From: Pseudomonas parafulva
Lineage (GTDB): Bacteria; Pseudomonadota; Gammaproteobacteria; Pseudomonadales; Pseudomonadaceae
Assembly: GCF_002021815.1 (NCBI RefSeq)
Contig: NZ_CP019952.1
Span: 1,581,001-1,645,000, forward strand
Reading direction: 5' to 3'
DNA length: 64,000 nucleotides
Shown here: one piece after another, positions 49,419-64,000 of the stretch
Layout of the letters: every line of letters begins with the position of its first letter
Position numbering within the stretch: position 1 is the first letter of the stretch
Notes under the pieces: model-generated
Told to the model about the DNA's origin: nothing
The model's input: the letters and a program-made list of their open reading frames with translations, nothing else
Databases searched by the model: none
Translations under genes and position numbers: made by a program

Positions 49419-51002
49419 TCAAACCACCCTGAAACGGTGGGTGCCATCGCGGCCGAGCTGATCGACCAAGCCAAATTCCCAATCCAGATATCCCTGCATG
49501 GCCTCCCGGGGATTGTCCGTGCCTTCGTAAGGTCGTCGGTAGCGATCGCTACGCGGCACGGCAAGCCGTGACTCACCGCTCTCCAGCGGATTCCCGGCAG
49601 CGATCCACTGTGCAGTGCCGCCTTCAAGCAGGTAGACGGGCGTGCGCGTGAGGGCTTCGAGGTCACGGGCGGCGAAGCGTGCCAGCAGGCCGCTGCCGCA
49701 GGTCAGCACAAACCGGCTTGCCTGTGGCACGTTTTCCAAGACTTTCGGCAGTTGGGCACGGATGGCCCAATAGGCACCTGGGATGTGGCGATTAACGTAG
49801 TTGGCGCTGGTGGTGAAATCGAGCAATACGGTATCGCCTTCTTCCAACCAGGCTGCCAGTTGCTCCACCTCAACCGTGCTGACCGGTGGTAACGCTGGCA
49901 ACGGTGGCTGCCACTGGCCGGTGGCGGTGAAGTCAGCAGCGTGCAAACCGTCGAGTACTGCCACCTGCCAGCCCATCTGCGCCAGCCACGAGGCCGTCAT
50001 GTTCGCGCGCACGCCGTCGTCATCGACCAGCACGACTCTCGCGCCACGTACACTGGCGACGTGGTCGGTTTCCTGTACCAGCTGGCCACCTGGCACCGAG
50101 CGGCTACCTGGCAGGTGGCCTGAGCCATATTCCTCGGGCGTGCGCACATCCAACAGGTAAGTGGTGCGGCTGGTATCAGCCTGCCATTGGGCAAGCCCGG
50201 CGCGGTCGATCCTCAGGACACCGGCACGGTCGGCCACTGCGCGAGCCTTGACTCCAGCCTGGGCCTGGGTGCCTGCCTCGACTTCGCTGAAGCGTCGCTG
50301 CTGGCCGTGGGCCAACTGCTGGCCCGCCAGCGTCCAGCCGATGGTACCGTTGCGCAGCGCTGCCACGGGGTTGGGGATGCCCGCATTGACCAATGATTGA
50401 GTGCCGATGATGCTGCGAGTACGGCCAGCACAATTGACGATCACCTGGGTGCTCGGGTCCGGTGCCAGCTCAGCCACCCGCAGCACCAGCTCGGCGCCAG
50501 GTACGCTGACACTGCCCGGGATGCTCATGGTCTGGTATTCATCGAAGCGGCGCGCGTCCAGCACCACCACGTTGGCTTCTTGCTCCAGCAACGCCTGTAC
50601 CTGCTCGGCGCTCAGCGATGGCGTGTGCCGCACACTTTCCACCAGTTCACCAAAGGCCTTGCTTGGTACATTCACGTCGCGGAACAGCTCCCCACCTGCA
50701 GCCTCCCAGCCGGCCAGTCCCCCTTCAAGAAGCGCCACGTCGCTGTAGCCCAGTGACCGTAGCCGCTGCAAGGCTTCTGCTGCCAGGCCCTCGCCGTTGT
50801 CGTATACGGTGATGGCGGTGTCTGCCCGCGGCACTCTGGCCAGCACTTCCAACTCCAGTTTTGACAGGGGAATGTTGGCCGCAAACAGGGGGTGGGCTTG
50901 GGCAAAGGGGGCTTCTTCGCGCACGTCGATCAGGGCTAGCTCTTCTTGCGCCAGGAGGGCACGGCGGATGTCTTGGTAGTGGCGTGTGCTGACGGTGCTC
51001 AT
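49419..51002 (-). CDS. four-domain rhodanese-like sulfurtransferase
   Basis: This 527-residue protein consists of four rhodanese-homology domains. Each has the repeated LLDVR/D and G...P landmarks: domain 1 ALIDVREEAPF, 2 VVLDARRFDEYQ, 3 YLLDVRTPEEYGSGHLPGS, 4 VLLDFTTSANYVNRHIPGA. An active-site cysteine is present only in domain 2 (Cys191, VIVNCAGRTRSIIG) and domain 4 (Cys435, LTCGSGLLARFA); domains 1 and 3 have Asp/Gly loops there and are probably structural. It would carry sulfane sulfur as a persulfide in the cytoplasm. Its start overlaps the thiol dioxygenase stop by 4 bases, so sulfur handling by the two is coupled. Confidence 0.9.
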   Translation of the reverse strand: MSTVSTRHYQDIRRALLAQEELALIDVREEAPFAQAHPLFAANIPLSKLELEVLARVPRADTAITVYDNGEGLAAEALQRLRSLGYSDVALLEGGLAGWEAAGGELFRDVNVPSKAFGELVESVRHTPSLSAEQVQALLEQEANVVVLDARRFDEYQTMSIPGSVSVPGAELVLRVAELAPDPSTQVIVNCAGRTRSIIGTQSLVNAGIPNPVAALRNGTIGWTLAGQQLAHGQQRRFSEVEAGTQAQAGVKARAVADRAGVLRIDRAGLAQWQADTSRTTYLLDVRTPEEYGSGHLPGSRSVPGGQLVQETDHVASVRGARVVLVDDDGVRANMTASWLAQMGWQVAVLDGLHAADFTATGQWQPPLPALPPVSTVEVEQLAAWLEEGDTVLLDFTTSANYVNRHIPGAYWAIRAQLPKVLENVPQASRFVLTCGSGLLARFAARDLEALTRTPVYLLEGGTAQWIAAGNPLESGESRLAVPRSDRYRRPYEGTDNPREAMQGYLDWEFGLVDQLGRDGTHRFRVV

Positions 51003-51607
51003 CGGGCAGGGTTCTCTTTGGACAGGTCCCAGATATTGGGCAGGTGGGCATTGGAGTAGCCGGAGATGAAGGGTTTTTCGCTTCCGTCCACGGTGTACAC
51101 GGCGCGCGTGACGGCCCCGATGTTGGCGCCGTAGACGTGAATGCTGATCGACACCTGGTCGGCGAAGGCATTGCTGACTTGATGGATGTCCCCAAGGGCC
51201 GGCGATACCGCTTCGACCTGGCCAGGCTCTAGGCGTACCGGCGCGCCCTCGGTCTGCAACGCACCGTATGCACCGCGCGCGAAGCCTTGAGCGAGCTCAG
51301 CGCCACGCAGCATGCCGATCAGGCCCCAGACGCGATGGTCATGGATGGGGGTGCGCTGCCCGGGGCCCCAGACGAAGCTGACCACCGAGAAGCGTTGGCG
51401 TGAGTCACAGTGCAGCAGGTATTGCTGATAACGCTCTGGATCGGGTTGGGCAAGATCGACTGGCAGCCAGTCGTCATGGACTACCAATTCAGCCAGCAGA
51501 TGCTTGCCCCGATCAAGCAGGGTTATCTCGTCAGGCTGTTGGTCGAGCAATGTGGCGAATTGGTCGATAAAGCGGCGCAGGCGCTCCGGGCGAAGGGGGT
51601 GGGGCAT
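50999..51607 (-). CDS. thiol dioxygenase, 3-mercaptopropionate dioxygenase type
   Basis: This 202-residue cupin of the cysteine dioxygenase family oxidises a thiol to a sulfinate with O2 and non-haem iron. Iron ligands are His89 and His91 (TPIHDHRVWG) and His142 (GDIHQVSN); His157 and Tyr159 (SIHVYGANIG) complete the site. The Gln at residue 62, where animal cysteine dioxygenase has Arg, and the close likeness to P. aeruginosa PA2602 suggest preference for 3-mercaptopropionate. It overlaps the rhodanese gene by 4 bases, a pairing also found in P. aeruginosa. It is divergent from the SsuA-like gene across an AT-rich region. Confidence 0.88.
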   Translation of the reverse strand: MPHPLRPERLRRFIDQFATLLDQQPDEITLLDRGKHLLAELVVHDDWLPVDLAQPDPERYQQYLLHCDSRQRFSVVSFVWGPGQRTPIHDHRVWGLIGMLRGAELAQGFARGAYGALQTEGAPVRLEPGQVEAVSPALGDIHQVSNAFADQVSISIHVYGANIGAVTRAVYTVDGSEKPFISGYSNAHLPNIWDLSKENPAR

Positions 51608-51904
51608 GGGTCAGGCTCGGTGGTCCAGGATTTGAAAGACCCTAACAAATCGGTAATATATTCGCAAAATGCAAAATAGTAATAACCTAATATGTAAATT
51701 GAGAATATAAAGATTAGGGGGTTTGCGCTTGCGCAAAAGATGAATCTTGCATGAGGTTATGCCTAAAGCGCATTTCACAAGCTGATATTTGCGCATTAGA
51801 TTATAAAAAACTGAATGTTAATGCTTTGAAGCTATAACCTGACCACCGGCCAGACCGCACGCGCGGATCGCCTCACATCCCCTAATGGGTCTACGGAGAC
51901 GAAC
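51608..51904. promoter_or_regulatory. AT-rich divergent promoter region of the sulfur cluster
   Basis: This 297-base gap is markedly AT-rich compared with the window. It contains a palindrome TTTGCGC-TT-GCGCAAA (51722-51737), further GCGCA motifs at 51765-51775 and 51788-51795, and ATAACCT three times (two direct near 51686 and 51834, one inverted near 51754). Such symmetrical sites are what a LysR-type regulator could bind to control both divergent units. No exact promoter could be assigned; TATAAC at 51833-51838 is a candidate -10. Confidence 0.5.
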
Positions 51905-52861
51905 GTGCGCTATCTCAAACACCTGACAGCCACCGTGCTGGCCACAACCTTCAGCCTCGCCGCCGCTGCCCAGGCGCTGGTCGTGGGCGATCAGAGCTAC
52001 AACGCCCGCGCCGTCATGGAAGCCGCCGGCGTGCTGGACAATCTGCCCTATTCACTGGAGTGGAAGCAGTTCACCGCAGGCTCGCCGGTGGCCGAGGCGC
52101 TCAATGTTGGCAGTCTGGACATCGGCTTGCTCGGCGATGCGCCGCCGCTGTTTCTGGGCGCCCTGGGGGCGCCGATCAAGGTGATCGCCGTCAGTCGGCA
52201 GAACCTTGCGGGGGTGGCCATCCTGGTGCGCAAGGACTCGCCGATACGTAGCCTCCAGGATCTACGCGGCAAACGCGCCGCAATCTGGAAAGGTTCGTGG
52301 AGCCAGCAACTGCTGTTCAGTGCCTTGGACAAGGCCGGCGTGCCCCGCGATACCCTCCAGCTGCGCTACCTCAGTGCACTGGACGCCTCCCATGCGTTGG
52401 ATGGCGCAGCTGTGGATGTGATCGCTACCTGGGAGCCCTATGTCACCCAGCAGGAGCGCCAAGGTGCTCGGGTACTGGCTACCGCCGAGGGTGTGATACC
52501 GGCGCAAAGTTTCGTGGTCGCCAACAGCCAGGCCGTGGAGCACAAGCGTGCGCAGATAGCCGACTTCCTCGAGCGCCTGAAAAAAGCCCGGGAGTGGGCT
52601 CTGAGCGACCCTGCCCATACCGAAGCCTATGCCGACGCCTGGGCTCAGCGCACCCGCGCCGATCGAGACATCGCCCGCGTATGGTTCGCCCGCGCGCGCA
52701 CTGACCTTGCGCCACTGGACCAGCAGGTGATCGCCGACGCGCAGAAAACCGTGGAGTTCTTCGCAGGATTGGGCCTGATCAAGGCCTATCCGGCGGCAGA
52801 CCTGTTCGACACCTCGTTTGGTGCGGCCTTGGCGGGCCACGCTTCGACCGCAATTGACTGA
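51905..52861 (+). CDS. SsuA/TauA-like substrate-binding protein, orphan
   Basis: This 318-residue periplasmic binding protein has a signal peptide (MRYLKHLTATVLATTFSLAAAAQA) and the aliphatic sulfonate binding-protein fold: AGSPVAEALNVGSLDIGLLGDAPPLF, GVAILVRKDSPIRSLQDLRGKRAAIWKGSWSQQLL and VIATWEPYV. It should bind a sulfonate or similar compound in the periplasm. The start is the GTG at 51905, with GGAG 10 bases upstream. No SsuB/SsuC-type permease or ATPase lies beside it, so it would need a transporter elsewhere. The monooxygenase gene follows after 9 bases. Confidence 0.88.
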   Translation: MRYLKHLTATVLATTFSLAAAAQALVVGDQSYNARAVMEAAGVLDNLPYSLEWKQFTAGSPVAEALNVGSLDIGLLGDAPPLFLGALGAPIKVIAVSRQNLAGVAILVRKDSPIRSLQDLRGKRAAIWKGSWSQQLLFSALDKAGVPRDTLQLRYLSALDASHALDGAAVDVIATWEPYVTQQERQGARVLATAEGVIPAQSFVVANSQAVEHKRAQIADFLERLKKAREWALSDPAHTEAYADAWAQRTRADRDIARVWFARARTDLAPLDQQVIADAQKTVEFFAGLGLIKAYPAADLFDTSFGAALAGHASTAID

Positions 52862-52870
52862 AGGTTCCCC

Positions 52871-54190
52871 ATGAGCAAACGACAGATCAAACTCGGCGCG
52901 CTGACCATGGGATGCGGTGGTCCGGGGCGGCATAACCTGTGGCTTGACCCCGAGCTGCCCGCAGACGCCAGCGTCAATATTGATTGGTACATCGACATCG
53001 CTCGTCAGGCAGAGGCCGCGCTGTTCGACCTGATGTTCATTGTCGACAGCCAGTTCATCACCGAAGGTTCACCCTCGCACTACCTCAATCGCCTGGAGCC
53101 GCTGACGCTTCTGTCCGCGCTGGCGGTCAGCACTCGCCACATCGGCCTGGTCGGCACGCTTACCACGTCCTACAACGCGCCATTCAACGTCGCCCGCCGG
53201 CTCGCCTCCCTGGACCTGATCAGCAAAGGCCGAGCCGGCTGGAACGTGGTCACCAGCGGCGATGCCGGCACGGCAGGCAACTACGGCCTGGATGAGCACT
53301 ATGACTACGACACCCGCTACGCCCGCGCCCAGGAGCATGTAGAGGTGGTGCAAGGCCTGTGGCATTCCTATGAGGAGGATGCCTTCCCACGCGAGCGGGC
53401 CAGTGGCCGTTTTCTGGACCCCTCGAAGCTGCATCGTCTGGATCACAAAGGGGAACACTTCTCGGTCGAGGGCCCTTTGAACATTCAGCGCTCGCCCCAG
53501 GGGCAGCCGGTGATATTCCAGGCGGGCGATTCCGAGCAGGGCCGCGACCTGGGCGCCGCCACTGCCGATGTGGTATTCACCCACGCCGCCAGCATCGAGC
53601 AGGGGCAGGCGTTCTACCGGGACATCAAGGGCCGTGCCCAGCGCTTGGGGCGGGACCCGGAGCAATTGCTGGTGCTGCCGGGGGCGGAGATCTACGTAGG
53701 CGATACCGACGAAGCTGCCCGAGAGATCGAACGTCACTACCATCAGGTCGACCACAGCTTCGAACTGGCCCTCAAAGAGTTCGGGCGCAATTTTGGGTGG
53801 CATGATTTCAGTCAGTACGACCTGGACGCACCCTTCCCGCAGCAGAGTCTGGACTACGCGCGCAGCAGTTTTTACACCAACGCCAAGCGCATTGCCGACC
53901 AAGCCCGTGAGAAAGGCTTCAGCTTGCGCCAGGCGGTGGAATTCGGGCGTCAGCTGCGCCCGGGCGCGTTCGTGGGGTCGCCCTCGACCGTAGCGGCCAA
54001 GATGGCCGAGTGGTTCGAAGCCAGGGCCCTGGACGGTTTCAACATCTACATTGGGCACCCTGGGCAATTTCGCCGCTTTACCCAGCAGGTAGTACCGTTG
54101 CTGCAAGAGCGCGGGATCTATCGCACGGCTTATGAAGGCAGCACGTTGCGCGAAAGCCTTGGGCTGACCATCCCGCGGTTCAACCGGTAG
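52871..54190 (+). CDS. NtaA/SnaA/DszA-family FMNH2-dependent monooxygenase
   Basis: This 439-residue luciferase-like monooxygenase is of the NtaA/DszA/SoxA group. Hallmarks are KLGALTMGCGGPGRHNLWLDPELP at the start, NRLEPLTLLSALAVSTRHIGLVGTLTTSYNAPFNVARRLASLDLISKGRAGWNVVTS, the segment NYGLDEHYDYDTRYARAQEHVEVVQGLWHSYE and GFNIYIGHPGQFRRFTQQVVPLLQERG at the end. Family members oxidise organosulfur or amine compounds with FMNH2 from a separate reductase; no flavin reductase gene is nearby. It is cotranscribed with the SsuA-like protein. Substrate unknown. Confidence 0.9.
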   Translation: MSKRQIKLGALTMGCGGPGRHNLWLDPELPADASVNIDWYIDIARQAEAALFDLMFIVDSQFITEGSPSHYLNRLEPLTLLSALAVSTRHIGLVGTLTTSYNAPFNVARRLASLDLISKGRAGWNVVTSGDAGTAGNYGLDEHYDYDTRYARAQEHVEVVQGLWHSYEEDAFPRERASGRFLDPSKLHRLDHKGEHFSVEGPLNIQRSPQGQPVIFQAGDSEQGRDLGAATADVVFTHAASIEQGQAFYRDIKGRAQRLGRDPEQLLVLPGAEIYVGDTDEAAREIERHYHQVDHSFELALKEFGRNFGWHDFSQYDLDAPFPQQSLDYARSSFYTNAKRIADQAREKGFSLRQAVEFGRQLRPGAFVGSPSTVAAKMAEWFEARALDGFNIYIGHPGQFRRFTQQVVPLLQERGIYRTAYEGSTLRESLGLTIPRFNR

Positions 54191-54272
54191 ACCCCAGACA
54201 CCCACACGCGGGTATGGGATGACGCCCAGGCGGGTCGGGCACTGTTTGACAGCGCTCGAACCCGCGTACACC

Positions 54273-55373
54273 CTAGCCCAAGCGTGTCTGGCGCTGCGCC
54301 TCGAATCGCTCCACCTGCTGACGAATGCGCGGAATCAGGTCCTGGCCGTATTCCACTGCATCGCGCAGCTGCTCGAACCCCCGAAACAGGAACGTGCTCA
54401 CGCCCAATTCGTAGTAGGCCAGCGCGGCCTCGGCCACTTGCTCGGCGGTGCCCACCAAGGACGTGGAATTGCCGGCCCCGCCGCCCAGGGCTGCGATCTC
54501 GGTCCACAGCCGGGTGTCATGCACTTTGCGTTCCTTGGCGAGCTGAACCAGGCGCTCGGACCCTGCATTGCTCTTGCCGAAGTTCTTTTCGCGGCGGTTG
54601 CCTTGACGGATGCCGATAGTGTTCTGGGCGTCGGCCAGAATGCGCTCGGCACGCGCCCAGGCTTCTGCTTCTGTGGCGCCGAGGATCGGGCGCAGCGACA
54701 GGCTGAAGCGAATGTGATGTTCTCGCCCGTAGCGGGCTGCAGCCTTGCGCACCTGTCTAATGCGCTCGCGCACTTGCGCCAGTGGCTCGCCCCACATCAT
54801 GTACACATCGGCGTGCTTGGCCGCGACCTCCACTGCTGCCTCCGAGGCGCCCGAGAAGTAGACGGGTAATTTGCCGACGGGCTTGACCAGTGTGAGGTTG
54901 TCTTCAACTTGGTAATGGGTGCCGTGATGATCGAAGGCAGTGCGCTGCGTCCAGGTGTTGTGCATCACCTCCAGGTACTCGTCGGTGCGGGCGTAGCGGG
55001 CATCCTTGTCCAGATAGTCGCCGTCGCGCTGCAGGTCACCGCTGTCGCCGCCCGTGATCACGTTGATCGCGGCGCGGCCACCGCTCAATTGGTCGAGGGT
55101 GGCGAACTGCCGGGCGGCGAAGGTGGGCGCCTGAAAACCGGGCCTATGCGCCACCAGAAGGCCAATGCGGTCGGTCAGCGCAGCGACGTAGCTGGCCAGG
55201 ATCATCGAGTCCGGCGCACTGGTGCTGACCGCCAGCAGCGCTTTGTCGAAACCGGCGTATTCCTGCGCCTGGGCGAATGCCTTGATAAACGCCAGATCGA
55301 CAAGCGGGCCACGGGGCGCTTGCGATTCACTGCTTTCCTGAGGGCCGATCAGGCCGATGAATTCGAGGGTCAT
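54273..55373 (-). CDS. SsuD-like alkanesulfonate monooxygenase family protein
   Basis: This 366-residue LLM-class flavin monooxygenase is close to SsuD/MsuD. VAHRPGFQAPTFAARQFATLDQLSGGRAAINVITGGD (near residue 85) is the family core, with DARYARTDEYLEVMHNTW and PVYFSGASEAAVEVAAKHADVYMMWGEPL following. SsuD cleaves sulfonates to sulfite and aldehyde using FMNH2. The start at 55373 with GGAG upstream is chosen over the ATG at 55415. It is the last gene of the minus-strand series and is separated from the ATPase gene by 91 bases. It is convergent with the NtaA-type gene. Confidence 0.9.
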   Translation of the reverse strand: MTLEFIGLIGPQESSESQAPRGPLVDLAFIKAFAQAQEYAGFDKALLAVSTSAPDSMILASYVAALTDRIGLLVAHRPGFQAPTFAARQFATLDQLSGGRAAINVITGGDSGDLQRDGDYLDKDARYARTDEYLEVMHNTWTQRTAFDHHGTHYQVEDNLTLVKPVGKLPVYFSGASEAAVEVAAKHADVYMMWGEPLAQVRERIRQVRKAAARYGREHHIRFSLSLRPILGATEAEAWARAERILADAQNTIGIRQGNRREKNFGKSNAGSERLVQLAKERKVHDTRLWTEIAALGGGAGNSTSLVGTAEQVAEAALAYYELGVSTFLFRGFEQLRDAVEYGQDLIPRIRQQVERFEAQRQTRLG

Positions 55374-55464
55374 TGGGGTGATACTCCTGCTCCAGTGGGG
55401 AAGACGCCAAGCCATGTGGCTTGACAGGCGTTAGGTAGTGCAGTGGACGGGCGCGGCGCAGTGG

Positions 55465-57084
55465 TCAGATCGCTACCGGCAGCACGCTGCGCGAGTGCCC
55501 TGGTATGGCCTGGATCAGTGCCCGCGTGTAGGCGCTGGCGGGTCGGCCGAACACCTCTGCGGCCGGGCCCTGTTCGACGACCTGCCCGTGTTGCAGCACC
55601 AGCACGTGGTCGGCCATGCTTGCCACCACTGCCAGGTCGTGAGAGACCAGCACGTAGGCCATGCCCAGGTCGCGCTGTAGTTCTGAGAGCAGGGCAAGAA
55701 TCTGTGCCTGCACCGACACATCCAAGGCACTGACCGGTTCGTCCAGCAGCAGTAGATCCGGCTCCAGTGCCAGGGCTCGGGCAATGGCCACGCGCTGGCG
55801 CTGGCCACCTGACAGCTCATGCGGCAGGCGATCCAGGAAATGCACAGGCAGGTGCACCTTGGCGATCAATTCCCGCGCCCTGCGCTCCAGTGCCTCACCT
55901 TTGCCCAGGCCGAACGACACCAGCGGCTCGACGATGCTGTCGTACACGGTGAAGCGTGGATCCAGCGCGGCAAACGGGTTCTGTTGCACCAGCTGGATGC
56001 GCCTGCGTAAGGGACGCAGCTGCTGCCAACTCAATGCGCTGACAGGTTGCCCTGCCAATTCCACATGGCCTTGGCTCGGCGTTTCCAGCCCCAAAGCAAT
56101 ACGCAGCGCTGTGCTTTTACCCGAGCCAGACTCGCCTACGATGGCCAAGGTCTGGCCCGCGTGCACGGTAAGGTTCAGGTCATGCAGGGCGGTGAACGGG
56201 CTGGGCTGCCCAGGCAAGACAAAGCGTTTGCAGATGTTGTGCAGCCGAAGCAGGGGAGGCTTATCGGTTGGCAAGACGGCGCTGCGTCGCGACACGAAGG
56301 CGGGCGCTGCCGCCAGCAGTTCACGGGTGTAGGGCTGCTGCGCACCCCAGAGAATCTGCCTGGGCGAGGCGTGCTCGATGAGCTTGCCGTGCTTCATTAC
56401 CAGCAGGCGGTCAGCACGGTCGCACGCCATGCCCAGGTCATGGGTGATGATTAGCAGCGAGATGCCGCGCTCGGCCGTCAGGTGTTGCAGGTGGTCGAGG
56501 ATCCGCCGCTGCACCGTGACATCCAGGGCGCTGGTGGGTTCGTCAGCCACGATCAACTTGGGCTCGCCGGCCAGCGCGATGGCAATCAGTACCCGCTGGC
56601 GCATGCCACCGGACAACTCGTGGGGGTACTGGCGAGCGCGCTGCGCGGGCTGGTCCAGACCTACCTGGGCCAGCAGAGCCTGAATGTCTGTGGCCAGGCC
56701 GGGATAACGACGGCCTCGGGCCAACACCAGTGCTTCACCGATCTGCTGGCCGATGCGCAGGGTAGGGTTGAGGCTGACCATTGGATCCTGCGGCACCAAG
56801 GCAATGGTGCGCCCACGCAAGCGGCGCCTGGTGCGCTCGTCAGCCTGGGCCACATCGACCCCGTCCACCCACAACTGACCTTGATCGATCTGGGCGCTGA
56901 TCGGCAGTAGGCCGAGCAGGGCGTTGGCGAGGGTCGACTTGCCGGAGCCAGACTCCCCGACAATAGCCAGTGTTTCGCCTTTGGCCAGGCTGAACGAAAG
57001 CTGGCTCACGGCCTGGGTGCGCTGCCCTGCAACGGCGTAGCTGATGGTCAGGTTGCGCACCTTGACCAAGGGTTGCTGGCTCAT
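55465..57084 (-). CDS. fused double ATPase of dipeptide-type ABC importer
   Basis: This 539-residue protein carries two oligopeptide-type (DppD/DppF, OppD/OppF) ATPase domains in one chain. Domain 1 (residues ~7-260): [36 protein letters not shown]. Domain 2 (~275-535): [49 protein letters not shown]. Both domains keep all ATPase motifs. Its start overlaps the DppC-like permease stop by 4 bases, and it powers the importer with the two permeases and the lipoprotein upstream. Confidence 0.93.
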
Positions 57085-57995
57085 CGGGCATGCTCCTCGG
57101 CGCTACGCGCCAGGTGATTGAGGCTGAACACCACGGCCACCACGAACAGCCCCGGCAGCAGGGATACCCACGGCGCTGTAACGAGAAAATGGCGCCCGTT
57201 GGCGATCAGCGTGCCCCACTCAGCAGCGGGCGGCGCTGCGCCGAAGCCCAGAAAGCTGAGCCCAGCGGTGGCCAGGATCGCGGCGCCAAAGTCCAGGGTG
57301 GCCAGTACCGCCACCGGGCCCCACGCATTGGGCAGTACGTGGCGCATCAGGGTGCGCGTCCAACTGGCGCCGGCTAGGCGCGCCGCTTCGACGTACGCCA
57401 GCGATTTGATGCGCAGCACCTCGGCGCGGGTCGTGCGGGCGAAGCCTGGAATGATCCCGACACCCACCGCAACGGCCACGGGCACCGTGCCAAAGCCGAT
57501 GGCCGTGACGATCGCCAGCGCCAACAGCAAGCCGGGTAGGGCAAGCAAGACGTCGATCAGGCGCATCAGGGCTGCATCCAGGTGCCCTCCGGCAAATCCC
57601 GCCAGTACGCCAAGGCCAAGGCCGCCCACCAGGGCGATGGCCACTGCCAGCAATGCCGCCATCACCGACAGGCGCGCGCCATACACCACCCGCGTGTACA
57701 GGTCGCGGCCCAACTCGTCGGTACCGAACCAATGCACCAGGTTTGGAGGCGTGAGCTTGTCGGCGGGTGCCGTGGCGTAGGGGTCGAAACTGGTGAGCAG
57801 CTGAGGTGCCAGTGCGGCAAATAAAGCGAACAAGACGATCAGCAGCGCCAGGCTGAAGCCAGGGCGGCGCAACAGCGGCGTCAAGGCGCGATGGACGCGC
57901 TGATACCGCGTGCGTCGTTCCCAGATGCGGCGTGTGCACGGCTCATCGCTGGTTGAGGCGGCGTCGGGTGCGATCAGGGGAATATCCATGGTCAT
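57081..57995 (-). CDS. DppC-like permease
   Basis: This 304-residue inner-membrane permease of the dipeptide/nickel importer family has an N-terminal cytoplasmic stretch, a helix (LALLIVLFALFAALAPQLL), the conserved FGTDELGRDLYTRVVYGARLSV motif, and five further helices. The cytoplasmic coupling segment EAARLAGASWTRTLMRHVLPNAWGPVAVL is the EAA loop that meets the ATPase. It pairs with the DppB-like permease, ending 2 bases upstream of this start. Confidence 0.92.
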   Translation of the reverse strand: MTMDIPLIAPDAASTSDEPCTRRIWERRTRYQRVHRALTPLLRRPGFSLALLIVLFALFAALAPQLLTSFDPYATAPADKLTPPNLVHWFGTDELGRDLYTRVVYGARLSVMAALLAVAIALVGGLGLGVLAGFAGGHLDAALMRLIDVLLALPGLLLALAIVTAIGFGTVPVAVAVGVGIIPGFARTTRAEVLRIKSLAYVEAARLAGASWTRTLMRHVLPNAWGPVAVLATLDFGAAILATAGLSFLGFGAAPPAAEWGTLIANGRHFLVTAPWVSLLPGLFVVAVVFSLNHLARSAEEHAR

Positions 57996-57996
57996 C

Positions 57997-58947
57997 TCAG
58001 TTCACCTTGGCCGTAGGGGTGATGCGAGGGTCGAGGTAGGGGTAGAGCAGATCGACGATCAGGTTGACGAGCACGAAAGCGGCCGCCGATACCGCGACAA
58101 TCGCCAGCACTACCGGTATGTCCTGACGCAGCACGGCTTCCTGGGCCAACCGGCCTACGCCATTGCGCGAGAAGATGGTCTCGACCAGCACGGCACCGGA
58201 CACCGTGTTGCCGACCTGCAGGCCGATCAGGGTCAGCAGCGGCAGCGTGGCGTTGCGCAGGCCGTGGCGGGCCTGGACCTGGGCGCGGCTGAGCCCTTTG
58301 GCGAAGGCGGTGGTGATGTAGGGTTCCTGCCACACCCCTTGAAAGCCCCGCTGCAACACTTGGGCATACACAGCGGCGCTGGGTATCGCCAGGGTGATTG
58401 CCGGCAGCACCAGGCTGGCAAAACCTTGGCTGCCAGTGGCCGGGAACCAGCCCAGCGCGAAGGCGAAGACCTGGATCAGCAACAGGCCCATCCAGAACAC
58501 GGGGATGGAAAAGCCCAGCGAAGGCACCCGGGCGAGTGCCGTCTTGAGCGGTCGCCATTGCAGGTAGGCGGTCAGGTAGGCAAGGCCGACCCCACCCACC
58601 ACCGACAGCACGATGGCAGAGCCCGCCAGCGCCAAGGTTTGCGGCAAGCGTTCGGCCAGCAGCGCGGTAACAGGTCGCCCCAGCGACAGCGACTGCCCCA
58701 GATCACCGTGCAGGGCACGCCACAGCAGGTCGATGTATTGCTCGAACAGGCCTTTGTCTAGCCCATAGAAAGCACGGGCCTTGGCCAATGCTTCGGGTGA
58801 CAGGCCATCGGCCTCCATGCCGGAGGCACTGAGCATGATCGTCAGGGTGTCGCCAGGCAAAAGGTAGAGGATGAAATACGTGATGGTGTACGCGCCCCAC
58901 AGTACCAGCAGCGCCTGACCCAAGCGGGTGATCAGATAGCGCTTCAT
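57997..58947 (-). CDS. DppB-like permease
   Basis: This 316-residue permease starts with the typical MKRYLITRLGQALLVLWGAYTITYFILYLLPGD helix and carries the family segments LPQTLALAGSAIVLSVVGGVGLAYL, LGFSIPVFWMGLLLIQVFAF and the coupling loop SRAQVQARHGLRNATLPLLTLIGLQVGNTVSGAVLVETIFSRNGVGRLAQEAVL. Start and the lipoprotein stop overlap by 4 bases. It is the first permease of the importer. Confidence 0.93.
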   Translation of the reverse strand: MKRYLITRLGQALLVLWGAYTITYFILYLLPGDTLTIMLSASGMEADGLSPEALAKARAFYGLDKGLFEQYIDLLWRALHGDLGQSLSLGRPVTALLAERLPQTLALAGSAIVLSVVGGVGLAYLTAYLQWRPLKTALARVPSLGFSIPVFWMGLLLIQVFAFALGWFPATGSQGFASLVLPAITLAIPSAAVYAQVLQRGFQGVWQEPYITTAFAKGLSRAQVQARHGLRNATLPLLTLIGLQVGNTVSGAVLVETIFSRNGVGRLAQEAVLRQDIPVVLAIVAVSAAAFVLVNLIVDLLYPYLDPRITPTAKVN

Positions 58948-60563
58948 GGCTGGCTGACCTCGATGTCGCTGAACAGCGCAAAGCCCTCGGCGGTCCAGCG
59001 GAAATCCTTGACCCGAGGTGCGGTGGCGGCTTGCCAGACGCGCTCGTACAGCGGGAAGGCGGAGGCTTCGTCGATCAGCAGGTCTTGCAGCTGCCCGTAG
59101 GCTTGGGCCCGTTGCGCATCGTCAGTCGCGGTGATGCCACTGTCGAGCAGCGCCTGTGCCCGGGTCAGGGTCTGCGGCTCGTAGGTATTGGTGGCCAGCG
59201 TGGCGCTGTTGGCCGAACGTGGGTCAAGAATCGTCTGCAAAATGATCGGGTCGGCACGGGTCATGTAGGTGGAAGTCAGGTCATAGCTGCCTGCTGCGTT
59301 ACCCGCGACCCATTCGGCGCGGGTCAGTACATTGAGTTTCAGGTCAATGCCGACCTTGCGCAGTTGGTCCTGCACCAACACGTCACCGGCGCTTTCGGCC
59401 GGGGTGAGGTTGTAGCGCAATGTCAGGCGCTTGCCGTTCTTGTACCGGTAACCGTCTTTGCCCTTGGGCCAACCGGCAGCTTCGAGCAACTGTTCGGCGC
59501 CAGCCGGATCATAGACGAGCTTGTTGGCCTGGGGCTTGAAGTACGGCGTGGTGACGTCGTACACGCCGCTCACGACGGGGAACTGCGCGTTGTACACGGT
59601 ATGCGCATAGCTGGTGCGATCGATGGCTTTTTGCAGCGCAAGGCGAACCTGTCGGTCAGCCAGCAAGCGGTTGTCACGGGTGTTGGGGTAGAGGTTCAAC
59701 GCGGGGCCTGGCAAGGACCGGCTCTGGATGGTGGCGCCCTTGGCCTGGAACAGTTTGAGATCGACCTCCGAGAAGGGGTTGCGCGGCCACAGGATATCGG
59801 CCTTGCCCTGAAGGAACAGGCCATTTCGCACACTTTCTTCAGGGATGTAGCTGATGTTGATGGCGTCCACATGCGCAGCGCCCCGGTTATGTACGTTGGC
59901 CGAGGGCCATGCGTAGTCGCTGCGCTTGACCAGGCGGGCGCCCACTTCGGGTGTGTAGTGGTCGAGGGTGAACGGTCCCGTCCCGATGATGTTGCCCAAT
60001 GAGCGCGCTTTGGCGGGCAGCTGGTACGAAGCTGGGGCGAGGATAGCCAGGTTGGTGGTGGACGTGGCCTGCAGAAAGCCTGCATTGGGTCGCAATAGCA
60101 CCAGGCGCACGGTGAAGTCATCGACCACCTCGGCATGGTCGTAGCCTGCCAGGTAGGTAGCGCCGAAGGTGGCGGGCAACTGAGCCGCGAATGCCTTGTT
60201 GCTGTCGAAGGCTGCTTTGACGGCGTGCGCGTCAAAGCGCTCGCCATTGCTGAACGTGACGTCCTGACGCAGGTGGAAGGTGTAGCTCAGGGCGTCGGCA
60301 CTGACTTCCCAGCTTTTGGCCAGCCAAGGGATGATCTGCCCGCTGTCGGGGTCTTGATCCGTGAGCGACTCAGCCACGTTGCGCAGCAGCACACGGTGCT
60401 CCAACCAGTAGACCTGGAAGGGATCGAGGCTGACCAGGGTGGTGTTGTCGCCCCAGAAGGCGATGTTGAGTGTTTTGCCAGCACTGGCTTCATTGCCAGG
60501 GGAGCAGGCAGTGAGGGCCAGGGTCAGGGCGCCGAAGGCAAACAGGTGGTGCAGTGGGGGCAT
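58944..60563 (-). CDS. DppA-like extracytoplasmic solute-binding lipoprotein
   Basis: This 539-residue family 5 solute-binding protein has a lipoprotein signal (MPPLHHLFAFGALTLALTAC, lipobox LTAC) and should be anchored at the outer face of the inner membrane. The binding fold shows LVSLDPFQVYWLEHRVLLRNVAESLTDQDPDSGQIIPWLAKSWEVSADALSYTFHLRQDVTFSNGERFDAHAVKAAFD. Such proteins bind peptides, nickel or other small solutes. Start at 60563 with GAAGGA upstream is chosen over the ATG at 60635, which would bury the signal peptide. It leads the importer genes, 149 bases after the aldolase gene. Confidence 0.92.
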   Translation of the reverse strand: MPPLHHLFAFGALTLALTACSPGNEASAGKTLNIAFWGDNTTLVSLDPFQVYWLEHRVLLRNVAESLTDQDPDSGQIIPWLAKSWEVSADALSYTFHLRQDVTFSNGERFDAHAVKAAFDSNKAFAAQLPATFGATYLAGYDHAEVVDDFTVRLVLLRPNAGFLQATSTTNLAILAPASYQLPAKARSLGNIIGTGPFTLDHYTPEVGARLVKRSDYAWPSANVHNRGAAHVDAINISYIPEESVRNGLFLQGKADILWPRNPFSEVDLKLFQAKGATIQSRSLPGPALNLYPNTRDNRLLADRQVRLALQKAIDRTSYAHTVYNAQFPVVSGVYDVTTPYFKPQANKLVYDPAGAEQLLEAAGWPKGKDGYRYKNGKRLTLRYNLTPAESAGDVLVQDQLRKVGIDLKLNVLTRAEWVAGNAAGSYDLTSTYMTRADPIILQTILDPRSANSATLATNTYEPQTLTRAQALLDSGITATDDAQRAQAYGQLQDLLIDEASAFPLYERVWQAATAPRVKDFRWTAEGFALFSDIEVSQP

Positions 60564-60712
60564 TGCGTGGTCCTTCAAGGAGATGAGTGCGTCGGTGTCC
60601 GGCCACGCGCAAGGCGAGCCGGTCGCCACTGACAACGTGTCGATCGTCGGAACATGGAGGCGCCTGAGCGGGCGAGCTTGCCCCTAGCGCAGGCACATCC
60701 AGCCTGGAGCGA

Positions 60713-61507
60713 TCAGTTCTGGTAGTCGCGGCTCTCGCGATCCAGTTGCCGGATCAACGCGTCCCAATGCCGCTGGATGCCTTCCCCCTTGCCATCGGAA
60801 AAGCGCTTGGATTGCTCATGCACCTTGGCAATGGCCGCCTGCGATGCATGCAGCAATTGATCGTTGCCCCCGGCCTGGGCGGCCACCTGAATATTGCAGG
60901 CACGCTCTAGCCCATGCAGTTCGCGAAATGCATGTTCCACGCTGATGCCCCCGGTCAGCAGCCCATGGTTGCGCAGGATGAGGATATTGCTGTCACCGAG
61001 GTTGGCCACCAGTCGCTGCTGCTCGTCCAGGTCCAGGGCCACGCCCTCGTAATCGTGGTAAACCACCCGGCTGTAGTACGCCAGGGCATGCTGGGAAATG
61101 GGCAGCAGGCCGGCGCGCTGGGCTGACACCGCTGCGCCGTCACGGGTGTGGGTGTGCAGCACAGCCTTGAGGTCGGGCCGGGCGCGGTGAATGGCGCTGT
61201 GAATTACATAGCCGGCCTGGTTGATGCCCAGGCCCAGCGGGTCGTCGATGATGGTGCCGTCGACGTCCACCTTGACCAGGTTCGAGGCGCTGATTTCGTC
61301 GAACAGCAAGCCAAAGGCATTGATCAGGAAATGTTCCTCCGGCCCTGGTACACGGGCGGAAAAGTGCGTGTAGATATGGTCAGTCCAGCGGAACAGGGCC
61401 GCCAGGCGGTAGGCGGCGGCCAGCTTGACACGCACCTCCCATTCTTCGGTGCTGACCCGGTCGCGCACGTTGTTGGCGGTGGGCTTGACGGCAGACAGTG
61501 AACTCAT
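60713..61507 (-). CDS. class II aldolase/adducin-family protein
   Basis: This 264-residue protein belongs to the class II (zinc) aldolase/adducin family: AAAYRLAALFRWTDHIYTHFSARVPG, then LINAFGLLFDEISASNLVKVDVDG, the metal ligands HTHTRDG near residue 118 and LRNHGLLTGG near 180. Members split or epimerise hydroxylated carbon chains such as fuculose phosphate or hydroxy acids. This gives no exact substrate here. The gene lies between a dehydrogenase gene (18 bases upstream) and the importer, so it probably handles part of the imported compound's carbon skeleton. Confidence 0.88.
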   Translation of the reverse strand: MSSLSAVKPTANNVRDRVSTEEWEVRVKLAAAYRLAALFRWTDHIYTHFSARVPGPEEHFLINAFGLLFDEISASNLVKVDVDGTIIDDPLGLGINQAGYVIHSAIHRARPDLKAVLHTHTRDGAAVSAQRAGLLPISQHALAYYSRVVYHDYEGVALDLDEQQRLVANLGDSNILILRNHGLLTGGISVEHAFRELHGLERACNIQVAAQAGGNDQLLHASQAAIAKVHEQSKRFSDGKGEGIQRHWDALIRQLDRESRDYQN

Positions 61508-61525
61508 TGAGGTGTTCTCCGGTGA

Positions 61526-62470
61526 TCAGTAACCACGGGCGGTGTCGACCAGATTGGTCAGGGGTGCTCGCTCGCGGTAGCGGTGGAAATTGGCGATGAA
61601 GGCTTCGAGAAACGCCGGGTAACCTTCATCGGAAATGGCCGAGGTGTGGGGCGACAGGAACACGCGTGGGTGGTGATAAAGCGGGTGGTCAGCGGGCAGC
61701 GGCTCGGGATCGGTCACATCCAGGCTGGCGCGGGCGATTACACCGCTGTCCAGCGCCTCCAGCAGCGCCTGCTGATCGATCAGCCCGCCACGGGCGACAT
61801 TGATCAGGTGCAAGCCTGGTCGGGCCTCGTTCAGTACGTGCCGATCGATCAGCCCACGGGTGTCACGGGTGAGTGGGGCGGCCAGCACGAGGTGGTCGCT
61901 CTGTGCGAACAACTGTCGTAGATCGTTGGCGCGCTCCACGCCGCGCACCTGGGTGATAGGCTGCCCTGGCCGGCTCAGGGCCGTTACCCGCATGCCGAGC
62001 GCCACGGCCTTATGAGCAAGGCTCTGGCCAATACTGCCGAAGCCCAGAATGCCCAAGGTGCGCCCGCGCAAAGGCGCCAGTGCGGTGAGGCGCCAGTCGG
62101 CGTTCTTGACCCAGAGGCTTGGCAATTGCTTTGCCGCGGCGAACATCAGTGCCAACGCGAACTCGGCCACTTGCTCGGCATTGGCGCCCTTGCCGCTGGT
62201 GACAGGGGGCCCGCCAAAGATCCATTCGGGGTAAAGATCGATGCCCGAAGACACCAGTTGCACCCACTTCAACCCCCAGGGCCACTGTACCGGCGGGCTG
62301 TCGATCCGCTGACCCCGCACATTGATCGGGCGCAGGATGAACACGTCGGTGGCCACTTCAAGGCTCAGCTGACCGGGAGGAACATCGATGACTCGATGAC
62401 CCGGTAACTGCTTGCGCAGGTAGTGATTGGCCTGGGCGTCGAGGTGGCTGGCAATCGTTGAATGGCTCAT
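61526..62470 (-). CDS. D-isomer-specific 2-hydroxyacid dehydrogenase
   Basis: This 314-residue NAD(P)-dependent dehydrogenase shows the Rossmann motif LGILGFGSIGQSLAHKAVALG near residue 140, catalytic Arg in INVARGGLIDQQALLEAL, the acidic helper in DVTDPEPLPADHPLY and catalytic His in FLSPHTSAIS near 283. It would interconvert a 2-hydroxy acid and a 2-keto acid. The start is the ATG at 62470, overlapping the flavoprotein stop by 4 bases. The aldolase gene follows after 18 bases. Substrate unknown. Confidence 0.9.
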   Translation of the reverse strand: MSHSTIASHLDAQANHYLRKQLPGHRVIDVPPGQLSLEVATDVFILRPINVRGQRIDSPPVQWPWGLKWVQLVSSGIDLYPEWIFGGPPVTSGKGANAEQVAEFALALMFAAAKQLPSLWVKNADWRLTALAPLRGRTLGILGFGSIGQSLAHKAVALGMRVTALSRPGQPITQVRGVERANDLRQLFAQSDHLVLAAPLTRDTRGLIDRHVLNEARPGLHLINVARGGLIDQQALLEALDSGVIARASLDVTDPEPLPADHPLYHHPRVFLSPHTSAISDEGYPAFLEAFIANFHRYRERAPLTNLVDTARGY

Positions 62471-63609
62471 GCCTGCACCTGTGCCAGTGCGGCTCGGCCG
62501 GCCTGGCTGAAGACGACGTCGTCCTGGGGGGTGTGGATGCGGCTGCAGAGCACGTCGCGGTAGTGCCGTTCCAGGGCATTGTGCCGCGAAAGCCCAGGGT
62601 TGCCCGCCGCTTCGACCGCCAGCGTCACGGCCTCGATGGCATTGGCGCTGACCAGCTGCTTCAGTTGCCCGGCATGGTGGGCTGCGGTGTGCCCGGCGAC
62701 AGCGCCATCGAGCAGGCTCTGGTTGGCAAAGAGCAGGGTATCGATGCGCCCGATCGTCTGCTGAAAACGCGGCAGACTCGCCAGAGGTGCACCCAGGTTC
62801 GACGGTGTGCGCTGCGTGAGAAATGCCACCAACCAATCGCGCGCCGCCTGTGCCACCGCGTCGTAGACCGCTGGCAGCAGTACGCTCATCCACAGCAGGC
62901 TGTCTTCATCGAGTTCGGCTTTCGGGGCGTTGGTCGGGCTGACGCTGACGGCATGATCAAGCGGGATCAGCACGTCCTCGAAATGCACCTGATGGCTGCA
63001 GGTGGCACGCATGCCCAAGTGGTCCCAGTCCTCGACGATGCTGATGCCGGGTGTGTCGCGGTGTACCAGAAAGCCGCCTACCAAAGGGACAGCGTCGTCG
63101 CTGCGGCCCCAGACCAGGAACCAGGTCAGACCATGGCTGCCCGTGGAGTAGATCTTGCGCCCGCTCAGGCGCCAGCCCTGCGCCGTGCGGCGCGCCACGG
63201 TGGCGGGCAAGCCGCCGCGGGTCGGGGTGCCAAGTTCGGGCTCGACGCGCAGCGCATTGATCAGTGCACCGTGTTCCACGGCGTCGCGGGCGATGCGGTG
63301 ACGCAGGCGTTCCGGCCAGTCTGCTGCCCGATGCGCACGGACATGCTGCAAGTACTGCATCACCAGGATAAGCCCGGTGGCCGGGTCGCCCTTGGAAACT
63401 GCGCTGATCACGCGGCGCGCGCTCGCCAGGTCCGCACCGCCACCGCCAAGGTGGCGCGGCACTGTGTAGGCGAGCAGCCCGTGGCGGTGCAGCAGGTCGA
63501 AATTGTCCTGAGGGAACCGAGCGCTGCGGTCATAGCGCTCGGCATTGGCCGCAAGGGCCTGCGTCAGCTCGGCGAGCGCGCTGCCTGAGGGGTGACTCAT
63601 GGGTTTCAT
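62467..63609 (-). CDS. acyl-CoA-dehydrogenase-fold flavoprotein (DszC/SfnB-like)
   Basis: This 380-residue protein has the acyl-CoA dehydrogenase fold (LHRHGLLAYTVPRHLGGGGADLASARRVISAVSKGDPATGLILVMQYLQH, LSGRKIYSTGSHGLTWFLVWGR, GMRATCSHQVHFEDVLIP). The C-terminal ERHYRDVLCSRIHTPQDDV resembles group D monooxygenases such as DszC (dibenzothiophene) and SfnB, not true acyl-CoA dehydrogenases, and no CoA-pathway gene lies near. It is therefore probably an FMNH2-dependent oxygenase acting on sulfur compounds. It may start at 63609 or at the ATG at 63600. It is the first gene of the minus-strand operon. Confidence 0.82.
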   Translation of the reverse strand: MKPMSHPSGSALAELTQALAANAERYDRSARFPQDNFDLLHRHGLLAYTVPRHLGGGGADLASARRVISAVSKGDPATGLILVMQYLQHVRAHRAADWPERLRHRIARDAVEHGALINALRVEPELGTPTRGGLPATVARRTAQGWRLSGRKIYSTGSHGLTWFLVWGRSDDAVPLVGGFLVHRDTPGISIVEDWDHLGMRATCSHQVHFEDVLIPLDHAVSVSPTNAPKAELDEDSLLWMSVLLPAVYDAVAQAARDWLVAFLTQRTPSNLGAPLASLPRFQQTIGRIDTLLFANQSLLDGAVAGHTAAHHAGQLKQLVSANAIEAVTLAVEAAGNPGLSRHNALERHYRDVLCSRIHTPQDDVVFSQAGRAALAQVQA

Positions 63610-63777
63610 CCCTGAATGACGGTGTGTTCCTTAAGACCGTATTCGTATGGATGAACGCTGTAAAAGTCTTTTTGGTTCTATGCTAATTATCAGTAAATAG
63701 AATTTAATCCAAATTTAGTTATGCGATTTACGTATATCGTGCGTTGAGTTTCATCACCCTGATGATTCAGGTTTAGA
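63610..63777. other. AT-rich promoter gap with inverted repeat
   Basis: This 168-base gap before the operon is AT-rich, with a run around 63672-63720. ATCACCCTG (63753-63761) is repeated inverted as CAGGGTGAT (63783-63791), bracketing the LysR stop codon, and may act as its terminator. CGTAT motifs recur at about 63641, 63646 and 63731. No promoter boxes can be named with confidence. Confidence 0.5.
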
Positions 63778-64000
63778 TCAGCCAGGGTGATAGCAGCCCT
63801 GCAAACGTTGCCCGGCCACGTTGCCGAACAACTCTACCGGCTCCTGAAGATTACCCAGGTAGCGAGGATGAAAAAGCCACAGGTCTACCTGTGGCTTGAA
63901 ATCACTGACGGTGAGTACATCGAGCGAATCGCGGTGCCGGCTGGCTTGCAGCAAGGGCTCCGGAACCAGCCCCAGCCCCTGACCATTTGCGACCAACCCC
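63778..64000 (-). CDS. LysR-family regulator, C-terminal part only
   Basis: The frame enters from beyond the right edge and ends at 63778. The visible ~74 residues (GLVANGQGLGLVPEPLLQAS..., FHPRYLGNLQEPVELFGNVAGQR) are the end of a LysR substrate-binding domain, where V-A-x-G-x-G-L-G-L-V-P is typical. The DNA-binding half lies outside. Being next to the operon and on its strand, upstream of it, it is likely to be its regulator, but a true start and target are not visible. Confidence 0.8.
   Translation of the reverse strand, partial: GLVANGQGLGLVPEPLLQASRHRDSLDVLTVSDFKPQVDLWLFHPRYLGNLQEPVELFGNVAGQRLQGCYHPG

Follow-up and report, generated by a model that had tools for sequence, protein, structure and literature searches.

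In Bacillus subtilis, CmoJ cleaves the alkylcysteine sulfoxides produced by CmoO (PMC10863075; papers are cited here by PMC number). In Pseudomonas protegens CHA0, the genes of 3-mercaptopropionate dioxygenase (3MDO) and of a rhodanese have already been described as a pair forming an apparent transcription unit, and 3-mercaptopropionate builds up in the 3MDO mutant; according to this 2026 paper, the biosynthetic enzymes of 3-mercaptopropionate have not yet been reported (PMC12947264). The cluster described here holds such a pair together with three oxygenases, an importer and a LysR-type regulator. It lies in a 64,000-nucleotide stretch of Pseudomonas parafulva contig NZ_CP019952.1 (the window), which was examined together with a 15-kb flank beyond its end (L003). 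Judging from its gene content and that of its relatives, the set is a recurrent module, gained and lost together in many Pseudomonas species, with 3MDO at its centre. It probably serves for importing some organosulfur compound, breaking its carbon-sulfur bonds and using the sulfur. The module bears on where the thiol that Pseudomonas 3MDO oxidises comes from in nature.

Joint inheritance and recurrence of the gene set

An earlier, sequence-only reading of the window had ascribed organosulfur handling to the cluster and the importer, and this is supported by the co-inheritance of 3MDO, a DszC-like oxygenase and the importer. In a sample of 149 Pseudomonas genomes, including that of the window, presence was called at E 1e-30 for 3MDO, E 1e-100 for the DszC-like protein and E 1e-150 for the importer binding protein, with sfnG (SfnG) as a control organosulfur gene. 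3MDO is found in 54 genomes and the DszC-like gene in 51; the counts for the importer binding protein and SfnG are 27 and 67. Both 3MDO and the DszC-like gene are present in 50 genomes (Fisher p 1e-33), and all 27 importer genomes hold the two of them (p 6e-16). The DszC-like gene occurs without 3MDO in G079 only, while 3MDO occurs without the DszC-like gene in G023, G072, G127 and G145. In each of the 50 other genomes that hold it, the best match to the DszC-like gene is 62-85% identical.

The association persists when relatedness is taken into account. A gyrB tree was built with FastTree from 110 genomes, namely the 54 with 3MDO and 56 of the 95 that lack it. On this tree 3MDO must have changed 23 times or more, and in 20 independent pairs differing in 3MDO the DszC-like gene differs the same way in 17.8 and the opposite way in 0.1 (median p 8e-6). 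Also, the importer compared with the DszC-like gene gives 10.2 pairs in the same direction and 0 opposed, of 15 (p 0.002). For the control SfnG, the corresponding figures are 5.5 to 2.5 of 20 pairs against 3MDO (p 0.5) and 5.5 to 2.5 of 21 against the DszC-like gene (p 0.45). 3MDO and the importer lie within 25 kb of each other in only 10 of the 27 genomes, being farther apart on one contig in 8 and on different contigs in 9, the last of which could partly reflect broken assemblies. On this comparison of genomes, the genes are a recurrent, jointly inherited set.

The cluster had been considered unusual in composition, which does not hold in the sense of a one-off, as the set recurs in many Pseudomonas species in two main layouts; the genome search for conserved gene order that had been proposed recovers most of it in many species of the genus. 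Layout 1, seen in relatives of P. fluorescens and P. syringae, comprises, as a rule in this sequence, the SsuD-like gene, aldolase and LysR, followed by 3MDO, rhodanese, a binding protein and the NtaA-like, DszC-like and dehydrogenase genes, with gaps in many genomes. Layout 2, that of the P. putida relatives and of the window, consists of block A (DszC-like gene, dehydrogenase, aldolase, importer, SsuD-like gene) and block B (3MDO-rhodanese, the SsuA-family protein SBPa, NtaA-like gene). The 3MDO neighbourhoods compared are those of the window and of 53 other genomes (46 and 7 loci), some cut by contig ends; there are exceptions, as in L119 and L123, where the stretch around 3MDO has hardly any further module gene or none. 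Around the DszC-like gene (the best 80 of at least 587 named loci, 10 kb on each side, with identity thresholds that we set), an SBPb-type binding protein is found in 65 loci, the NtaA-like gene in 54, LysR in 54, the dehydrogenase in 53, the rhodanese in 52, 3MDO in 44, the aldolase in 41, the SsuD-like gene in 35 and the importer binding protein in 17. Moreover, a plasmid of Paraburkholderia largidicola carries seven of the genes in a row: SsuD-like, aldolase, 3MDO, rhodanese, LysR, binding protein and DszC-like. Recurrence in Pseudomonas and this row in Paraburkholderia indicate that the gene grouping exceeds chance.

A promoter element shared by several module units

In layout 1, a block TATAASCTAATCAT...GCATATTA is conserved upstream of 3MDO. 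A matrix built from 15 distinct blocks of other species was run over the window and its 15-kb flank, and its six best scores fall in or at the edge of intergenic regions of the cluster, namely DszC-like/LysR, 3MDO/SBPa and LysR/SBPb. Only the top three of these, 26.0, 16.0 and 15.1, are higher than the 6.9 that five simulated sequences reach at best, and two of the three come from a single site scored on either strand. Because intergenic regions are AT-rich, simulated sequences are too weak as a control, and column-shuffled matrices were therefore added. The site at 63677 scores 26.3 against at most 20.0 for 100 such matrices, being the sole site of the window above the best of them. It corresponds to an operator-like 31-base element between the DszC-like and LysR genes (63677..63707, plus strand), recognised by matrix and pattern, and the 31-base pattern has this single match in the 4.69-Mb genome.

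The 10-base core of the element, ATAASCTAAT, is found at 68 sites in 52 of 90 loci (1.69 Mb fetched), 65 of them, including those of six stand-alone importer operons, at most 500 bases upstream of a module gene, and at none in one simulated copy per locus; the 90 loci were chosen for holding module-type genes, and related genomes are non-independent. Within the window and flank the core occurs twice, at 51682 and 64781, both inside the cluster; the former is the operator-like ATAACCTAAT of the 3MDO/SBPa intergenic region (51682..51691, plus strand), identified by sequence pattern. The importer stands alone at 14 loci, and at each of them the top-scoring matrix match lies upstream of it; the mean score is 17.4, compared with at most 13.3 for 200 column-shuffled matrices. 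The 12 real loci used as negatives proved an impure control: 6 scored above 10, and for 3 of these 6 sites an NtaA-like or aldolase gene follows no more than 300 bases downstream. As a separate observation, a near-perfect 31-base element (score 59) is present at L041:281 (G022:C57), about 270 bases ahead of an aldolase gene; 3MDO of that genome is carried by another contig.

As far as such comparisons tell, a short promoter element recurs upstream of several module units, some of which lie apart on the chromosome. Going by the position and conservation of the sites, the LysR protein is the putative binder of this element. The jointly inherited module is real and its units are probably co-regulated, and the ATAASCTAAT motif offers a means to find the whole regulon.

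Gene products of the cluster

Scans against Pfam and NCBIfam find all the genes that had been named from the sequence, with open reading frames. The LysR-type regulator is indeed present (minus strand, family scan), although not wholly inside the window: it spans about 63778-64764 (L003:4778-5764), of which 63778..64000 belong to the window. Past the window end, it is followed by two further SsuA-family proteins, SBPb and SBPc (230 and 208 bits with TIGR01728, cut-off 163.5).

The thiol dioxygenase (50999..51607, minus strand) was correctly recognised as such and matches solved 3MDO (PDB codes: 3uss/4tlf) over 198 residues with 321 bits. Sequence comparison shows that H89, H91, H142, S155, H157, Y159 and R168 are all conserved. 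Three histidine ligands and Arg168 are characteristic of 3MDO. The Ser-His-Tyr triad of 3MDO is named in PMC10966181. By sequence and active-site residues, then, the predicted enzyme is a 3MDO. The adjoining rhodanese (49419..51002, minus strand) has four stretches matching the Pfam Rhodanese model, and a loop cysteine is visible, reading the sequence by eye, only in domains 2 and 4.

The labels given to the three oxygenases fared differently. The NtaA-like protein (52871..54190, plus strand), a predicted NtaA/DmoA-family flavin mononucleotide (FMN) monooxygenase, is confirmed as such by TIGR03860 with 506.8 bits against a cut-off of 279.7. Compared with solved structures, it is closest to YtnJ (406 bits), ahead of DszA (257), DmoA (206) and EDTA monooxygenase (199); a nitrilotriacetate monooxygenase entry (PDB code: 3sdo) ranks close behind YtnJ. 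We take YtnJ to be CmoJ, the C-S monooxygenase of B. subtilis, and the likeness suggests that the NtaA-like enzyme may have a CmoJ-type function. The SsuD-like protein (54273..55415, minus strand) is a Bac_luciferase-fold monooxygenase for which SsuD fails as a family name, as it reaches 243 of the 518 bits required by TIGR03565 and 247 of the 510 required by NF001939. It shows a distant likeness only, with 208 bits (7jv3) and 186 bits (1m41) to solved alkanesulfonate monooxygenases. Similarly, for the acyl-CoA-dehydrogenase-fold oxygenase (62467..63609, minus strand; family scans and PDB comparison), DszC/SfnB describes a likeness and not a family, the scores being 106 against 431 bits for SfnB (TIGR04022) and 48.5 against 850 for DszC (NF043015).

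No flavin reductase is found among the window proteins scanned. Elsewhere in the genome, an FMN_red-family gene is located at 260933-261355, about 600 bases before a site at 261952 that matches the SsuA-type gene of the cluster. The surrounding region (G000:C1:242000-264500) is a second one of sulfur type, with permeases, two acyl-CoA-dehydrogenase-type genes, the FMN reductase-family gene and the SsuA-like match.

The remaining genes of the cluster include SBPa (51905..52861, plus strand; TIGR01728 183 bits, cut-off 163.5) and, on the minus strand, a class II aldolase/adducin-family protein (60713..61507; NF005451 362 bits, cut-off 207; PDB code: 3ocr) and a D-2-hydroxyacid dehydrogenase (61526..62470; 2-Hacid_dh_C). 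The G+C content from 48 kb onward is about 60-66% in 2-kb steps, which is ordinary for the window. Sigma-54 promoters were also considered and the idea was dropped, with 2 matches in the window against 4.4 expected by chance. Beyond the last SsuA-type gene, a 434-residue open reading frame (L003:8112-9416) matches nothing in Pfam or NCBIfam at the thresholds applied. About 5 kb past that SsuA-type gene, a minus-strand run at L003:13147-16866 (window coordinates about 72147-75866) encodes a binding protein, two amino-acid-type permeases and an argininosuccinate-lyase-family protein. The run resembles S-(2-succino)cysteine lyase operons, but the lyase-family protein, which scores above the cut-off of the argH model, may be an ordinary argH product.

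The importer and its relatives

The importer (55465-60635, minus strand) consists of an ATPase with two ABC domains (55465..57084; ABC_tran twice, oligo_HPY), permeases of the Opp/Nik C type (57081..57995) and B type (57997..58947), both assigned by family models, and an SBP_bac_5 binding protein (58944..60635). The nearest models are Nik/Opp-like, and for the permeases and the binding protein no family model is above its cut-off. The binding protein scores 275 bits with TIGR04028 (cut-off 468.5), 173 with nikA and 127 with NikA of PDB code 4oer. Assignment of the importer to organosulfur handling agrees with its presence exclusively in genomes with 3MDO and the DszC-like gene, and with the operator-like core upstream of 7 of the 14 stand-alone importer operons. 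The further step from a peptide-type importer to a thioether or conjugate as substrate is weak, the binding protein being nearest to NikA among proteins of named function.

Moreover, in 10 of the 14 stand-alone loci the binding-protein gene is closely preceded by one for a TonB-dependent receptor of about 805 residues (called by Pfam in two loci and by homology in the remainder), so chelates or large molecules fit the importer equally well. In the genome of the window, no relative of the receptor of locus L334 is found at E 1e-60, in a search that had no positive control. In G024, a close relative (L034:14889-19513), the stretch between the SsuD-like and NtaA-like genes encodes a related receptor together with an amine oxidase and a RidA protein, and on a plasmid of the alphaproteobacterium Ketogulonicigenium vulgare (L084) an amine oxidase and RidA stand beside an NtaA-importer operon. 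Amine oxidase and RidA are both absent from the window and its 15-kb flank, a genome-wide search for them not having been made. An undescribed route that takes a large or metal-binding organosulfur compound from a TonB receptor into the cytoplasm, with the Nik-type importer, S-oxygenation, CmoJ-type cleavage and 3MDO all under one LysR protein, seems unlikely; if true, it would be a physiological source of a 3-mercaptopropionate-like thiol for Pseudomonas 3MDO.

Proposed mechanism and alternative explanations

According to the mechanism proposed here, the SsuA-type binding proteins, with an Ssu-type permease encoded elsewhere, and the Nik/Opp-type importer would take up one or more carbon-bonded sulfur compounds, in many relatives with the participation of the TonB receptor. 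By analogy to CmoO and CmoJ, the DszC-like oxygenase could S-oxygenate a thioether to the sulfoxide, and the CmoJ-like enzyme of the NtaA family, possibly together with the SsuD-like one, could break the C-S bond, using FMNH2 that is provided in trans. 3MDO would then oxidise the thiol set free in this step, either 3-mercaptopropionate or something closely similar, to the sulfinate, from which sulfite would arise, while the rhodanese would handle sulfane sulfur, and the aldolase and the 2-hydroxyacid dehydrogenase would process the carbon fragment. The LysR protein would control the module by binding ATAASCTAAT. It is very likely that the genes belong to an organosulfur scavenging regulon, and fairly likely that they form one LysR-controlled organosulfur-scavenging module acting on this type of substrate by these steps. 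For C-S cleavage feeding 3MDO the chances appear even, and the exact order of the steps is doubtful.

Several results weigh against a single module of this kind. In CHA0, deletion of the rhodanese gene had no significant effect on extracellular 3-mercaptopropionate (PMC12947264), and the main text of a sulfur-starvation paper on P. aeruginosa PAO1 names none of PA2590-PA2609. A 3-sulfinopropionyl-CoA desulfinase (NF042439) is not found above the cut-off in the genome of the window (best 277 against 600 bits), nor is the cut-off reached in any of 14 control genomes; at this cut-off the known downstream route thus lacks its enzyme. On raw counts SfnG has a weak association of its own, with p 0.010 for 3MDO and p 0.006 for the DszC-like gene, and, given that 3MDO and the DszC-like gene lie at most 25 kb apart in 41 of the 50 genomes, part of the co-inheritance is physical linkage. 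Regarding the promoter element, the score of 15 at 51775 stays within what shuffled matrices reach, and the 31-base pattern was composed after viewing the window site and those of other species. Shuffled matrices also land upstream of the importer in 10 of the 14 stand-alone loci on average, and the operator matrix is partly a detector of AT-richness. The exact core is present at only 7 of these 14 importers, 6 of the 7 loci being close relatives (receptor 92-100% identical), and the remaining 7 have weak matches, from 5.7 to 17.0.

Two unrelated sulfur units, the 3MDO-rhodanese pair and an independent sulfonate-type cluster, might instead stand side by side by chance in this lineage. The CHA0 pair described on its own (PMC12947264) fits this explanation, as does G023, where 3MDO-rhodanese occurs without the DszC-like gene and the SBPa/NtaA pair is about 95 kb away; the 3MDO-bearing genomes G072, G127 and G145 likewise lack the DszC-like gene at the cut-off applied. 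However, 3MDO accompanies the DszC-like gene in 50 of 51 genomes, the gyrB tree test and the shared promoter element join the two halves, and Paraburkholderia has genes of both in one row, which makes a chance arrangement quite improbable.

We give about the same low weight to the uptake and degradation of an aminopolycarboxylate or opine metallophore, for which the EDTA operon (EppABCD and EmoA) is a precedent (PMC7312458). The NtaA family of the oxygenase, the Nik-like binding protein, the receptor upstream of 10 of the 14 stand-alone importers, and the occurrence of amine oxidase and RidA within the cluster of G024 and near the Ketogulonicigenium operon would all suit it. Nonetheless, the NtaA-like protein is far nearer to YtnJ than to EDTA monooxygenase (406 and 199 bits), 3MDO is co-inherited, the rhodanese and three SsuA-type proteins are adjacent, and the amine oxidase, RidA and receptor searches described above, with their respective limits, gave none for the window and its flank or, in the case of the receptor, for its genome. 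A Cmo/Yxe-type salvage, as in Bacillus, of S-alkylcysteine or S-(2-succino)cysteine draws on YtnJ as the closest solved relative of the NtaA-like enzyme, and a second oxygenase could fill the part of CmoO. This explanation is slightly more improbable still, as none of the 12 window proteins scanned with Pfam is a candidate for its acetylation or deacetylation step, and it has no place for 3MDO.

Comparison with described systems

No description of this gene set, of its link with 3MDO or of the shared element turned up in the open-licence PMC literature (titles, openings of abstracts and selected passages). No open-licence PMC paper was found to contain two or more of six KT2440 tags from PP_3218 to PP_3228, which we presume to be possible equivalents. 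Other candidate reports were set aside: chromate proteomics of P. putida F1, with raised levels both of an aliphatic-sulfonate ABC protein (Pput 2245) and of a LysR protein (Pput 2545), could not be tied to the cluster (PMC2996968); the prometryne strain DY-1 has a Baeyer-Villiger enzyme and a different set (PMC8230428); and root-exudate transcriptomes mention ssu and tau genes, the excerpt containing no rhodanese or aldolase (PMC8079746).

Each of the systems closest to the cluster shares a part of it. The ssuEADCB alkanesulfonate system has SsuA-type binding proteins and a luciferase-fold oxygenase, whereas the cluster is without an Ssu-type ATPase, permease and FMN reductase and its oxygenase is far under the SsuD cut-off. 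The catabolism of 3,3'-thiodipropionate and dithiodipropionate in Variovorax and Advenella has 3-mercaptopropionate as an intermediate that is oxidised by 3MDO, whereas no 3-sulfinopropionyl-CoA desulfinase scores above the cut-off in the genome of the window. The EDTA operon of Chelativorans combines a NikA/OppA-type importer with an NtaA-family monooxygenase (PMC7312458), but the oxygenase of the cluster is nearer to YtnJ and sulfur genes are present. The S-alkylcysteine salvage of B. subtilis resembles it in an NtaA-family C-S monooxygenase, nearest to YtnJ, and sulfoxidation followed by C-S cleavage is workable as a model (PMC10863075); the module differs in having no acetyltransferase or deacetylase and in adding 3MDO, rhodanese, aldolase, 2-hydroxyacid dehydrogenase and the Opp/Nik-type importer. 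Finally, 3mdo-tst of P. protegens CHA0 and PA2602-PA2603 of P. aeruginosa are the same two genes, with 3MDO upstream of the rhodanese (PMC12947264). They form a two-gene unit there, whereas here co-inheritance and the shared element link them with oxygenases, an importer and LysR, which yields a short list of candidate partners for 3MDO. The parts are of known families, and the gene combination, the tie to 3MDO and the shared element are what appears to be new, going by the literature searched.

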